Both the position numbers and the translations under genes were made by a program. A stretch of DNA of 64,000 bases from positions 593,575 through 657,574 of the forward strand of contig NZ_CP023018.1 in the NCBI RefSeq assembly GCF_022406875.1. Direction: 5' to 3'. This stretch comes from Ectothiorhodosinus mongolicus (GTDB taxonomy: Bacteria; Pseudomonadota; Gammaproteobacteria; Ectothiorhodospirales; Ectothiorhodospiraceae). Position 1 is the stretch's first letter. Each line of letters opens with the position of its first letter. This document shows, piece after piece, positions 56,067 through 61,564 of the stretch. The notes beneath the pieces are model-generated. The model did no database searches. It had not been told where the DNA came from and saw only the letters and a list, made by a program, of their open reading frames with translations.

Positions 56067-57398
56067 ATGGCGAAACGCATCACCCGCAAATCTCTGGCAC
56101 TGGGACTGGCTTTGTCTTTGTCGGTATTCGCCTTGCCAGCGCATAGCATCGACTTGTTTGATGTGTATCGCCAAGCGCTTGATCGCGATCCCGAGCTGCG
56201 CCGCGCCGAAGCAGAGTTCCGAGCCGCACAGCAGCTTCGCCCACAGGCAAGATCTGCCTTGCTGCCGCAACTTGATGCGGGCGCCGGATACTCAGCGATT
56301 GATCGAGATCCGCAGGGCGCCGAACGCTTTGATTACCGGTCATTGAATTATGACCTCACACTGAATCAACGCATTTTTGATCAGCGCGTCTTCACCGGCG
56401 TGCGCCAAGCCCGCTTATTAACTTCAGAGGCTCAGGCGTTTCGTGACGCCGCTCGCCAAGGGCTGATCCTGCGCGTTGCCGAAGCCTACTTCGGTGTGCT
56501 CTCCGCCAAAGACAATCTCTCTTTTGCCGAAGCTGAAAAAGAAGCTATTGGCCGCCAGCTAGAACAATCCGAGCGGCGTTTCGAAGTCGGTCTGATCGCC
56601 ATTACCGACGTCAAAGAAGCCCAAGCCCAATTCGATTTATCTGTGGCAGAAGAAATCGCCGCGCAAAACCGTCTTGATCGGGCACGTGAGGACCTCGCGG
56701 TCATCACGGGTCAGTATTACGAAGCCATGGCGCGACTCTCTGAGCGTATGCAACTGGTCAGCCCCGAACCCGCCGATAAACAGCAGTGGGTCGAAACGGC
56801 CCTCGAACAGAACTTAGCGCTGGCCGCGCAGCGCTTGGCTACCGAACGCAGTGCCGAAGAAATTAAACGCCAACGGGGCGGACACTTACCCACGCTGAAC
56901 TTGAGCGCCAGCTACCGCGATGAAGAGATTCGCAACCCCAGCAGCGGCGTTCCCGATAATATTAGAGATTCAAAGGGCACTGAGATCGGCTTGCGCCTTA
57001 ATGTGCCCATTTTCGCTGGTGGTAGCACCGTGGCGCTCACCCGCGAAGCCCGCGAAAACTTTGAAGCCGCTCAAGAGAGCCTTGAACTGCGCCAACGCCA
57101 AACCGTGCGTGAAGCCCGCAACGCCTTCCAATCGGTCAATGCCGGCATCTCCCGCGTCCGCGCCTTAGAGCAGGCATTGGAATCTACCCGCGCTGCATTT
57201 GAAGCAACCCAAGCGGGATTTGAGGTTGGAACGCGTACCGCCGTTGAAGTCCTACTAGAACTGCGCCAGGTCTTTCGCGCCGAGCGTGATTTTGCTGAGG
57301 CGCGCTATGCGTATCTGCTCGACACGTTGCGCCTGAAACAAGCCGCGGGCGTTCTCACGGAAGAAGACCTCATCGCCATCAATAACTGGCTGGACTAG
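56067..57398 (+). CDS. tolC: Outer-membrane efflux channel TolC
   Basis: TolC forms the outer-membrane exit duct for efflux pumps and type I secretion. A signal peptide (SLALGLALSLSVFALPAHS) precedes two OEP repeats: the first with LFDVYRQALDRDPELRRAEA and LNYDLTLNQRIFDQRVF, the second with TEIGLRLNVPIFAGGSTVAL and VEVLLELRQVFRAERDFAEA. About 443 residues, normal for TolC. The ATG at 56067 has GGA at suitable distance; ATG 56061 is an alternative. Its TAG overlaps the waaA TAG on the other strand in a shared CTAG. Confidence 0.95.
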   Translation: MAKRITRKSLALGLALSLSVFALPAHSIDLFDVYRQALDRDPELRRAEAEFRAAQQLRPQARSALLPQLDAGAGYSAIDRDPQGAERFDYRSLNYDLTLNQRIFDQRVFTGVRQARLLTSEAQAFRDAARQGLILRVAEAYFGVLSAKDNLSFAEAEKEAIGRQLEQSERRFEVGLIAITDVKEAQAQFDLSVAEEIAAQNRLDRAREDLAVITGQYYEAMARLSERMQLVSPEPADKQQWVETALEQNLALAAQRLATERSAEEIKRQRGGHLPTLNLSASYRDEEIRNPSSGVPDNIRDSKGTEIGLRLNVPIFAGGSTVALTREARENFEAAQESLELRQRQTVREARNAFQSVNAGISRVRALEQALESTRAAFEATQAGFEVGTRTAVEVLLELRQVFRAERDFAEARYAYLLDTLRLKQAAGVLTEEDLIAINNWLD

Positions 57399-58660
57399 GC
57401 TCGTGAAGCCACAAAGCTGAGAATCCGGTCCACCGCCCCGCGATTGGCTTTTAACACCTCTTTGGCGGCCGTAATCATCTCTAGGCGTGCGACCTGGTTA
57501 GCCAAAAGCCACAACAAACTGCCGGCGAGAGCCTCGGAATCCGCGACCTTTTTCGCGCCCCCACGGGCTTCCAACGCAGCATAGATGCTTTCAAAGTCCG
57601 CGATATCTGGACCAGTAATAATCGGCACTTGCTGCGCGGCCGCTTCTAAGGGATTATGACCGCCCGCAGACACCAAGCTGCCGCCAATAAACGCAGCATC
57701 CGCAATGCCATACATCAGCAGCAGCTCCCCCATGCTATCGATCAGCCAGGCTTGATGCTCCGACGTGGGATTAGCGTGTGCGCTTCTAGAGACATAACTC
57801 AGGCCTGCCTCATCTAAAGACTGAGCGGCATCTTCAAAACGCTCGGGGTGCCGCGGCACCCAAACCAGCAAAGCATCGGGCATCTCCATCAAGACCGCCT
57901 GATGTGCCGCGATCACCACGGCCTCCTCGCCCCCATGCGTGCTGGCGGCAATCCAAATGGGTCGCGCGCCCAATTGGTCACGCAGCTCTAGCGCCGCCTC
58001 GCGCAAATTCGGGTCAATCGCCAGGTCAAACTTAATATTGCCAGTAACCTTTACGGCCGCGGGATCCACACCCAGCCCAATAAACGCCTGTCGATCACTC
58101 TCATCACGAGCTGCGATGCCACTAACCGCCGCTAATACCGGGCGTAATAAAGCCGAAAACCGGCAATAACGCCGAAAGGATCGCGGCGATAAGCGCGCAT
58201 TAAGCAAGAACACCCGCACCTCGCGCTGATAACAAGCGATCAGCAAATTTGGCCAGATCTCAGTCTCCATCACCCACAGCTGATCCGGCTGCACCCGCTC
58301 CAAAAATCGCCGCACGGCGCCAGGCAGGTCATACGGCAGGTAATGGTGCTGCACCTCATCACCCAGCTGGCGCTCAAGCTCCGCCGCTCCAGTAGGAGTC
58401 GTGGTCGTGACGATGACCTCAAGCTCCGAATGCGAAGCCATGTGCGCGCGAATTAAGGGCACAGCCGCCATCACCTCGCCCACGGAGACGGCATGCACCC
58501 ACAAACGCCCATGAGAGGCCGAGTCATATCGAGGAACATATCCAAAACGCTCAGCAATGCGCTGCCGATAAGCCGGATTGACCCGCCCCCGCCAATACAG
58601 CCGCAGCAGCACCCAAGGGGTGAGCACATACAGCAGCAAGGAATAGAGCTTCAGGGCCAT
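57395..58660 (-). CDS. waaA: 3-deoxy-D-manno-octulosonic acid transferase WaaA (KdtA)
   Basis: WaaA attaches KDO to lipid A in the inner membrane. An N-terminal membrane segment (LYSLLLYVLTPWVLLRLYW) is followed by the GT-B domains: WVHAVSVGEVMAAVPLI (catalytic Glu), FLLNARLSPRSFRRYCRFS, AASTHGGEEAVVIAAH and FIGGSLVSAGGHNPLEAAAQ (20). The ATG at 58660 gives 421 residues and matches the start of the family. A terminator-like hairpin lies directly before the start and no ribosome site is visible there. Confidence 0.96.
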   Translation of the reverse strand: MALKLYSLLLYVLTPWVLLRLYWRGRVNPAYRQRIAERFGYVPRYDSASHGRLWVHAVSVGEVMAAVPLIRAHMASHSELEVIVTTTTPTGAAELERQLGDEVQHHYLPYDLPGAVRRFLERVQPDQLWVMETEIWPNLLIACYQREVRVFLLNARLSPRSFRRYCRFSALLRPVLAAVSGIAARDESDRQAFIGLGVDPAAVKVTGNIKFDLAIDPNLREAALELRDQLGARPIWIAASTHGGEEAVVIAAHQAVLMEMPDALLVWVPRHPERFEDAAQSLDEAGLSYVSRSAHANPTSEHQAWLIDSMGELLLMYGIADAAFIGGSLVSAGGHNPLEAAAQQVPIITGPDIADFESIYAALEARGGAKKVADSEALAGSLLWLLANQVARLEMITAAKEVLKANRGAVDRILSFVASRA

Positions 58661-58664
58661 AAAC

Positions 58665-58692
58665 AAAAAACGCGCGTGGGCATCAACGCGCG
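58665..58692 (-). terminator. Intrinsic-terminator-like hairpin directly before waaA
   Basis: Read on the minus strand, CGCGCGT, an eight-base loop and ACGCGCG form a seven-pair G+C stem, followed by TTTTTT (58665-58670), then GTTT and the waaA ATG. This has every mark of a rho-independent terminator but is placed in the leader of waaA, where a ribosome site would be expected. It may be a leader attenuator or a stop for antisense transcription from the lpxL side. Confidence 0.7.
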
Positions 58693-58769
58693 CATCTTAG
58701 CATGCAGCCTGTAAAAGCTCTGGATGTTAAACTCCATTCACATGCTTTTTGAGCCCTTAATGTCTTCTC

Positions 58770-59675
58770 GTGAACCTTAGCTTACTGCACCCAAAACACT
58801 GGCCCTTGTGGATTGCGGCTGGCATATTTCGGCCACTAACTAGAGTGCTTCCATGGCGATCCCAAATCAGTATTGGTAGAGCGATTGGGGCCACTATCTA
58901 TTATTTAGCCCCCCATCGTCGGAGAATTGCACTAACCAACCTACAACTTTGCTTTCCCGAAAAAACCGACACAGAGCATACCCAACTCGCGAAAAAGCAT
59001 TTCAAGGCAATGGGCCCGGCTATTTTTGAAACGATGTTGAGTTGGTGGGGTGCAGACAAGCAACTGCTATCATTGGCACACTTTCAGGGCCTCGACCATC
59101 TCATCGATGCCAAAAACCGGGGCAAAGGCGTATTGCTGGTCTCCGCGCATTTTGCTCCGTTAGAAATCACAGGCCGCTTACTGGCTATGCAGGTGCCGTT
59201 TGCTTTCATGTATCGCCGCGAACGAAGTGCGCTCTTGGAACATTTTTTTGCTACCTATCGGGTAAAACACTATCGAAAGGCAATTCGCAGCGATGATATC
59301 CGGGAAGCGATAAAGTTATTAAAGGGGGGCGAAATTGTCTGGTATACCCCCGATCAAGCCTATCAGGGACCACGCCACTTAAACGTGCCTTTTTTTAACG
59401 TCCCCGCAGCCACCAACTCCGCAACAGCGCGCATCGCTAAGGCTACTGGTGCAGCTGTGATACCGTTCTTCGGCTATCGTCTCTCCGATCAAGAGGGCTA
59501 TCGACTTGAAATCCTCCCAGCTCTGCAAGGTTTCCCAGGTGGAAACCTTGAAGCTGATACGGCGCGCATTAATCGGATTATTGAGGAGGCGGTGAGAAAG
59601 CACCCAGAGCAGTATTTTTGGACGCATCGGCGTTTTCGCTACCCGCCTGAGTCTGGACTGACAACCCCTTACTGA
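58770..59675 (+). CDS. lpxL: Lipid A acyltransferase, LpxL/HtrB family
   Basis: LpxL-type enzymes add a secondary acyl chain to KDO-lipid A at the inner membrane. The active-site H-x4-E is seen in VSAHFAPLEITGRLLA, with FMYRRERSALLEHFF, IVWYTPDQAYQGPRHLNVPF and the C-terminal YFWTHRRFRYPPE. The 301 residues match the family. The start is GTG; no strong ribosome site precedes it. Which acyl position it serves (LpxL, LpxM or a related late enzyme) cannot be told from sequence alone. Confidence 0.92.
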   Translation: MNLSLLHPKHWPLWIAAGIFRPLTRVLPWRSQISIGRAIGATIYYLAPHRRRIALTNLQLCFPEKTDTEHTQLAKKHFKAMGPAIFETMLSWWGADKQLLSLAHFQGLDHLIDAKNRGKGVLLVSAHFAPLEITGRLLAMQVPFAFMYRRERSALLEHFFATYRVKHYRKAIRSDDIREAIKLLKGGEIVWYTPDQAYQGPRHLNVPFFNVPAATNSATARIAKATGAAVIPFFGYRLSDQEGYRLEILPALQGFPGGNLEADTARINRIIEEAVRKHPEQYFWTHRRFRYPPESGLTTPY

Positions 59676-59696: not shown

Positions 59697-60452
59697 TCAG
59701 CGCCAATGCTCATCAATCCAGGGCGTTGGCTTAACCGTTTTATAAAACCGCTTATACCACGGCACTGGCGACCCCCAACGACCAGCGATAGCATCTGGGG
59801 GATTCGGGTTTCCATGAAATGTGATGATTTTAGCACCGGCAGGGATCTTGGTGGGCGCGATAAAACTGTTCAAAACCCCACCAGGCATGCAATGGTCTTT
59901 GAAGCTGATCACCCATTCTTTGGGCAACCAGGCGATGTTGTCCCAGCCCAATGTCTCGGGGATGTAGTTCTGTTCTGAGTCAAAGCGCTTATAGATAGCC
60001 GGTGCATCCCGGCGCCAGTTCTCAAGCAACTCTGGGAACTGGCCCATATTGAAGCAAATCACCGACCCCTGACCAAATAGTCTTCCAGGCTTTGACCAGT
60101 TCTCTGGCATGACCAATTTGTCTGAGAACGTGAATAAGTCGTCGATGTTATCCACGATCACCACATCAAGATCGATAAGCAGTGTTTTGCCCTTGAGGTC
60201 ATGGTACTCAGCATCGAATAAAGCCAGCTTACGCCAGCACTGACAACGCGGCAGATACTCGGCCGTCGGCTCCTCAAACTCTGGCAGCGGAAAAATCTCC
60301 ACGCCATCATCAATCCCCTCAGCGTCTTCCGTGATGCAGATGAACCTCAGAGGCAGTGTGACGTGGCGCTTACACATGTTGTGCAATTTGTTCACATACT
60401 CGGGACCATACTTGGTACCAAATTTGAGACAAACAACATTCACTGGATCCAT
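59697..60452 (-). CDS. Putative glycosyltransferase (DLD motif), LPS locus
   Basis: I recognise a GT-A-like pattern but not a named family: NVVCLKFGTKYGPEYVNKLH at the N-terminus, FICITEDAEG, then KTLLIDLDVVIVDNIDDLF with the DxD metal/nucleotide-sugar motif, and GSVICFNMGQFPELLENW. This layout resembles GT8-like proteins. There is no membrane segment. The ATG at 60452 has GGGGAAAG upstream; a TTG five codons before is possible. It likely adds a sugar to the LPS core, judged from its neighbours lpxL and the O-antigen ligase-like gene. Confidence 0.7.
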   Translation of the reverse strand: MDPVNVVCLKFGTKYGPEYVNKLHNMCKRHVTLPLRFICITEDAEGIDDGVEIFPLPEFEEPTAEYLPRCQCWRKLALFDAEYHDLKGKTLLIDLDVVIVDNIDDLFTFSDKLVMPENWSKPGRLFGQGSVICFNMGQFPELLENWRRDAPAIYKRFDSEQNYIPETLGWDNIAWLPKEWVISFKDHCMPGGVLNSFIAPTKIPAGAKIITFHGNPNPPDAIAGRWGSPVPWYKRFYKTVKPTPWIDEHWR

Positions 60453-60505
60453 TAATTCTTTCCCCAAAAAATCATTCTGGTAAGCATCACAAAATTACAG
60501 GCCAA

Positions 60506-61465
60506 TCAGACCGCATCCTTTGGCTCATATGCATGATGCTCTGGCCTGAAAGAGCCATCGATGCGGCAATGTGTGAATAAGCCTGTGCCCTGTGCAACCT
60601 TGAAGTTTTTGCGGCGCCACCAACCCCCAGCTAAACATATTTCGGGTGCCTGAAAACCGTTAGGAGTGCGAGACCTTGATGGATGAGCATCCACATATTT
60701 CATTAACACATCTAAAAAAAATGATCGCCTCATCATGACGCATTGATCGGAGAATTCCAGAGCTCGACTACGCACCACCAGGAATTCCTCCCCACTAAGC
60801 GTTCGCGTGCGATGAATATCCTCTGGAAAGAACTTTTCAGGGGACTCCTCAATAAAGATACTACTCCCGACGAGACGACGCGCCTTAATGGGCCGCAGAG
60901 AACGAAGAAATCTTTTCTTGGTTGACTCTGGAAAACCCTGAGGGCCAACCTCATGGAATTCAGGCTGCCACTCAGGGGATGCATGCCTTATAGGGTAATA
61001 ACGGCAGTACCTGTCAACCAGACAGAACCCTTCGCCAACTCGCCAACGATGCTGAAGCCGAACAACATGTGCCACCTCAGACCGCAGCAATTCAAGGGCC
61101 CCCTCGAGGTGCTTCTTAGCAAATTCAGTTCCCACTACCAGAGGGTTATCATTCTGCAACAAAATCACATACGGAGTATCTAGGCTCTCAGCGAGGCGCT
61201 TCATTCCCCCAGCAATACCCTGATTAACGCCCCCATTAACCTGCCAACCGAACTCTCTTGCCAGTTCCCTGTCAGCTTCTGAGATATCTGAGAAGAAAAT
61301 CAACCGCTTACCAAACAGATCTAGAAAATCAGCCGTGTTCTGGTAGGACGTGAGACTCCCTCGCAGTGTCTCATGGGCTTTCCACGACAATATGCCAAGT
61401 CCCAGATCTTTGAACATCGCCATTCTTATTTTTGAGCCATTATCCGTTAAATGCTGTAGTGACAT
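60506..61465 (-). CDS. Uncharacterised protein, GT2-like, LPS locus
   Basis: The 319 residues contain GLGILSWKAHETLRGSLTSY and VNGGVNQGIAGGMKRLAESL followed by TPYVILLQNDNPLVVG, which resemble the nucleotide-sugar part of family 2 glycosyltransferases, with NDN where a DxD would be expected. The rest has no match I know. No signal peptide or membrane segment. The ATG at 61465 has GGAG upstream, but an ATG at 61423 or 61417 may be used. A role in LPS core decoration is inferred only from position, upstream of the 59697 gene on the same strand. Confidence 0.6.
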   Translation of the reverse strand: MSLQHLTDNGSKIRMAMFKDLGLGILSWKAHETLRGSLTSYQNTADFLDLFGKRLIFFSDISEADRELAREFGWQVNGGVNQGIAGGMKRLAESLDTPYVILLQNDNPLVVGTEFAKKHLEGALELLRSEVAHVVRLQHRWRVGEGFCLVDRYCRYYPIRHASPEWQPEFHEVGPQGFPESTKKRFLRSLRPIKARRLVGSSIFIEESPEKFFPEDIHRTRTLSGEEFLVVRSRALEFSDQCVMMRRSFFLDVLMKYVDAHPSRSRTPNGFQAPEICLAGGWWRRKNFKVAQGTGLFTHCRIDGSFRPEHHAYEPKDAV

Positions 61466-61564
61466 GATGCTCCGCGCCAAACTTCAACACAATGCTGCAA
61501 ACTCACTGGATGAATTTTAGAAAAGAGGCAATAATGATAGCGCTTACTCCCACACGCATGCCTG

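Follow-up and report, generated by a model that had tools for sequence, protein, structure and literature searches.

Does the hairpin that lies directly before the start codon of waaA end the transcription of this gene, or does it belong to the place where transcription begins? The window, i.e. the whole stretch of 64,000 nucleotides analysed here, carries waaA on its minus strand (57395..58660); the gene encodes a Kdo transferase of 421 aa (NF004388, 509.8 bits, cut-off 438), and the most similar waaA proteins share 51-55% identity with it. A gene for an lpxL/htrB-like acyltransferase (58770..59675, plus strand; TIGR02207, 303 bits, cut-off 297.8) is its divergent neighbour, and a tolC-like gene points towards waaA from the other side. 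The earlier note had regarded the hairpin as terminator-like and had offered two ways out, a regulated attenuator or an RNA that starts inside or after the element. The second proposal is favoured, since an extended -10 element directly adjoins the 5' arm of the hairpin on its upstream side, and the first is left unsupported. The hairpin element probably marks where an ordinary extended -10 promoter begins transcription, and the ensuing leader would be short and U-rich, with no Shine-Dalgarno site.

The inverted repeat before waaA

The repeat (58671..58692, minus strand), recognised in the sequence, by scanning, and by folding, has the terminator-stem-like form CGCGCGT-8-ACGCGCG. Along the minus strand, the element TGCTAAGAT is followed by a single G, the 5' arm CGCGCGT (58692-58686), the 8-base loop TGATGCCC (58685-58678), the 3' arm ACGCGCG (58677-58671), the T tract TTTTTT (58670-58665), GTTT, and the waaA ATG at 58660. 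The geometry reported earlier (a 7-bp stem, an 8-base loop, six T, and four bases before the ATG) is confirmed by the sequence. The placing of the start codon by the family alignment holds as well, with five g4 waaA sequences beginning with M in the same column; an in-frame TTG at 58666, 6 nt upstream of the ATG, would leave the argument unaffected if it were used. A wider, imperfect inverted repeat, AGAGCTT(TTA)CAGG / CCTGAAGCTCT, extends across the promoter and the first waaA codons (58720-58640, minus strand).

In the DNA, a GC-rich stem with a short loop is followed by six T on the coding strand, as in intrinsic terminators and attenuators. The hairpin scan yields a stem of eight pairs (one G-T pair added), with six G-C pairs, around the 8-base loop. 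The stem-loop alone reaches a dG of -12.9 kcal/mol (z -2.1), with 5/200 shuffles equally good, and together with 30 nt of downstream context its z-score is only -1.33 (15/200 shuffles).

A comparable hairpin with a T tract arose in 8/5000 dinucleotide shuffles of the 39-nt leader, in 0/5000 shuffles of the 109-nt intergenic region, and in 34/5000 sequences in which the middle was shuffled and the 5' arm and the T tract were kept fixed. Such a combination is seldom obtained by local shuffling, which weighs against the promoter reading, and it is less striking across many genes. A genome sample of 464 kb (the window and 400 kb) contains 36 sites with hairpin and T tract vs 21 in the reversed sequence, and by energy the waaA hairpin is the 19th of the 36. 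For eight of these sites a called start follows within 60 nt, and for two, including that of waaA, within 20 nt, based on crude gene calls (354 genes, with lpxL itself missed).

Extended -10 element and predicted RNA start

The element TGCTAAGAT (58694..58702, minus strand) abuts the 5' arm of the repeat and begins 42 nt before the waaA ATG. It follows the extended -10 pattern TGnTAnnnT on the right strand, and its distance to the start codon suits a promoter. The stretch 58661-58769 harbors a single TGNTANNNT on each strand, TGCTAAGAT towards waaA and TGTTAAACT towards lpxL, and scans of the intergenic region revealed no promoter candidate on the waaA strand farther upstream than TGCTAAGAT. 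The search for a waaA -35 hexamer at spacings of 15-19 gave no good match (at most 3/6). Taken alone, the motif is weak, and its strength rests on its recurrence in relatives: by chance, it appears on the waaA strand in 165/2000 intergenic shuffles (~8%), on both strands together in 12/2000, and in 25% of 140-nt sequences obtained by base shuffling. Within the 464-kb sample, TGNTANNNT is most frequent in the bin 40-49 nt upstream of called starts, with five places among 140 genes, one of them waaA; its overall frequency, 0.275 per kb, would lead one to expect about 0.4 there.

For most discriminators, the modal start lies 7 bp downstream of the -10 element, as stated in PMC5730371. On the basis of this modal position, transcription of waaA is predicted to start at G58687 (minus strand), 7 bp after the -10 element, a purine with a C before it. 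The sequence between the -10 element and the predicted start, GCGCGC (58688..58693, minus strand), would represent the discriminator and accounts for the greater part of the repeat's 5' arm. The predicted start falls inside the 5' arm, and the hairpin would therefore be a feature of the DNA that is absent from the predicted waaA mRNA. Folding of RNAs that end with the 3' arm gave -12.9 kcal/mol when the start was set at 58693, -10.2 at 58691, -4.7 at 58689, and -1.8 from 58688 to 58684; accordingly, a start 5 bp or less after the -10 element would leave a partial hairpin.

It is supposed that RNA polymerase recognises TGCTAAGAT (58702-58694) and initiates at about G58687. Most of the 5' arm would then act as an untranscribed GC-rich discriminator, the waaA mRNA would carry the 3' arm only, and no terminator hairpin would form in it. 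The predicted leader of 27 nt (58661..58687, minus strand) would be single-stranded and is U-rich near the ATG; a Shine-Dalgarno site was sought before the waaA ATG and is not present, and the ribosome would initiate without one. In the genome sample, a 4-base Shine-Dalgarno match is absent at 173/351 called starts vs 276/351 random places. The leader also contains a possible upstream ORF of 10 codons (MPTRVFCLWP; 58651..58683, minus strand), which begins at the fifth base of the predicted RNA, overlaps the waaA start, and may well be due to chance.

With extended -10 (TGn) sigma-70 promoters, the locus shares the element itself, its distance to the start codon, the lack of a good -35 hexamer, and a purine at the modal start. 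It differs from them in that the GC-rich discriminator happens to pair with a downstream part of the leader that runs into a T tract. The differences from intrinsic terminators and attenuators are the location of the 5' arm, most of which precedes the predicted RNA start, and the lack of a conserved leader, of a detectable switch structure, and of a counterpart in relatives. Searches of the literature on waaA, hldE, and lpxL promoters, kdtA attenuators, RNA starts within terminators, discriminators, and promoter-terminator overlap brought up nothing on this arrangement. The locus serves mostly as a warning: what looks like a textbook terminator in front of a start codon can in one half be a promoter, and terminator scans should be compared with predicted RNA starts.

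Upstream regions in relatives and apparent loss of heptose genes

The comparison comprised 22 upstream regions of relatives, nine of hldE and 13 of waaA; left out were G001 and G008 (two of the nine genus mates, with no lpxL near their hldE), the waaA genes located behind hldE in genus mates, the remaining g3 members, and other families. The extended -10 recurs in the direction of waaA or hldE in 11/22 regions. These are not independent; only g1 and g4 are represented among the 11, and G012 and G017 each supply an hldE and a waaA region. TGNTANNNT is located 43-65 nt before the hldE start in six of nine relatives and 46-51 nt before waaA in five of 13, in the variants TGGTAAGAT (four), TGATACAAT, TGATATCAT, TGCTAACAT (three), and TGCTACCAT (two). 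It is absent from three of the nine hldE regions (L048-L050) and eight of the 13 waaA regions (L017, L019, and L025-L030). The three hldE regions, which belong to genus mates, show TTGTATCAT followed by GCGCGGG or GCCCGGG, with ATGCGCGGG as the discriminator in L048 and L049 and ATGCCCGGG in L050. Because the discriminators ATGCGCGGG resemble ATGCGCGCG of the window, the comparison suggests that the 5' arm of the repeat is older than the hairpin.

The hairpin was sought upstream of waaA and hldE in the relatives and was seen in none of the regions shown. Apart from the own genome, a DNA search of 47 family genomes, the same set being covered by the order-level search, matched the early part of the waaA coding sequence in three genus mates and nothing else, and no examined genome aligns to the locus beyond coding sequence. 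Nine distant loci (L031-L039) came from a scan of named genome contigs, and none from a scan of viral sequences.

This lack of conservation argues against a regulated attenuator or riboregulator, in which RNA from farther upstream would fold into the hairpin and a factor would determine whether transcription stops or waaA is expressed. The stem, loop, and T tract match such a device in shape, and the 81 nt from 58720 onwards form a better fold than 200/200 shuffles (z -3.62). This fold is judged irrelevant to the RNA of the promoter TGCTAAGAT because it needs bases upstream of the -10 element, absent from that RNA, together with waaA codons. An attenuator would further call for a promoter candidate farther upstream on the waaA strand of the intergenic region, which is missing there, and an Rfam search gave no match at E up to 5; with neither a conserved leader nor a known family, the attenuator put forward in the earlier note is very unlikely.

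That the hairpin was not seen in relatives likewise weighs against a roadblock terminator nested in the promoter, an unlikely arrangement in which minus-strand transcripts from upstream would stop at the hairpin and RNA from 58687, without the 5' arm, would pass. The incoming RNA would derive from the gene at 59697-60467, with transcription continuing across lpxL. A roadblock would be compatible with the promoter; the hairpin with its T tract is, as described, seldom yielded by local shuffles, its energy falls within the range of the terminator-like sites of the genome, and it is the first minus-strand terminator-like site after the end of that gene. Of the eight hairpins in the sample that precede a called start by no more than 60 nt, that of waaA alone has its 5' arm bordered by an extended -10, which also speaks against a roadblock. 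Quite improbable is the combination of a nested promoter-terminator, with the 5' arm as discriminator, upstream RNA stopped, and local RNA immune, with re-initiation at waaA via the upstream ORF.

For the preferred reading, the start region of an extended -10 promoter, LPS biology offers a reason for the odd layout in this small genome (one contig, 1,995,095 bases, 99.95% complete), where waaA stands beside lpxL. In 9/9 genus mates, hldE adjoins waaA directly upstream, and the divergent lpxL is located beyond hldE in 7/9. For domain I of hldE, the own genome yields only weak matches (57 bits vs a cut-off of 345), which are presumably of the PfkB type. Domain II has no match there, and all nine genus mates exceed its cut-off; heptosyltransferases I and II have no match either, with 9/9 genus mates matching below the curated cut-offs. 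The HldD family TIGR02197 was uninformative, as no genome reached its cut-off. The genome thus appears to have lost HldE (both domains) and heptosyltransferases I/II, and its LPS core is probably heptose-less. The position of waaA right behind the promoter opposite lpxL would be a young arrangement, which plausibly arose because the heptose branch and with it hldE were lost. The ancestral promoter would be either that of hldE or waaA's own, and G012 and G017 possess both. In the gap between hldE and waaA of G009 (L002), some 40 bases ahead of waaA, lies a palindrome, GGGGACGGATT-TG-AATCCGTCCCC, that has no T tract.

The lpxL side and farther neighbours

On the plus strand, TGTTAAACT (58725..58733) is the candidate extended -10 element of a divergent lpxL promoter, detected in the motif scan and compared with relatives. 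Its -35 hexamer, sought at spacings of 15-19, has no good match (at most 2/6). An element of the TGNTANNNT type is present in 10/18 of the relatives' lpxL upstream regions, a count that leaves out two overlaps with the element of the other strand; six g3 members have none. In the underlying comparison, the downstream start had been picked wrongly by the automatic procedure at several loci (e.g. L052, L054, L055, L057, and L058).

With two putative promoters facing apart, the inverted repeat may be pictured as a DNA operator between them, as its dyad CGCGCGT-8-ACGCGCG overlaps the discriminator and the predicted waaA start. The exact repeat has a single match in the whole genome, and at up to two mismatches 21 sites are found vs 39 for the reversed control pattern; an operator is the least probable of the readings weighed here. 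Membership of the repeat in a repeat family was rejected on the same counts, with no second exact copy and near matches no commoner than those of the control. Related GGGGTACGACCCC / GGGGTCTGACCCC hairpins recur at three other loci of the own genome (L082, L086, and L089) and may form a repeat family.

Beyond lpxL, two minus-strand ORFs (59697-60467 and 60506-61480) gave no Pfam hit at E up to 0.001, and the first of them lacks an NCBIfam match as well; they stand beside genes for an O-antigen ligase-like protein and a glycosyltransferase.
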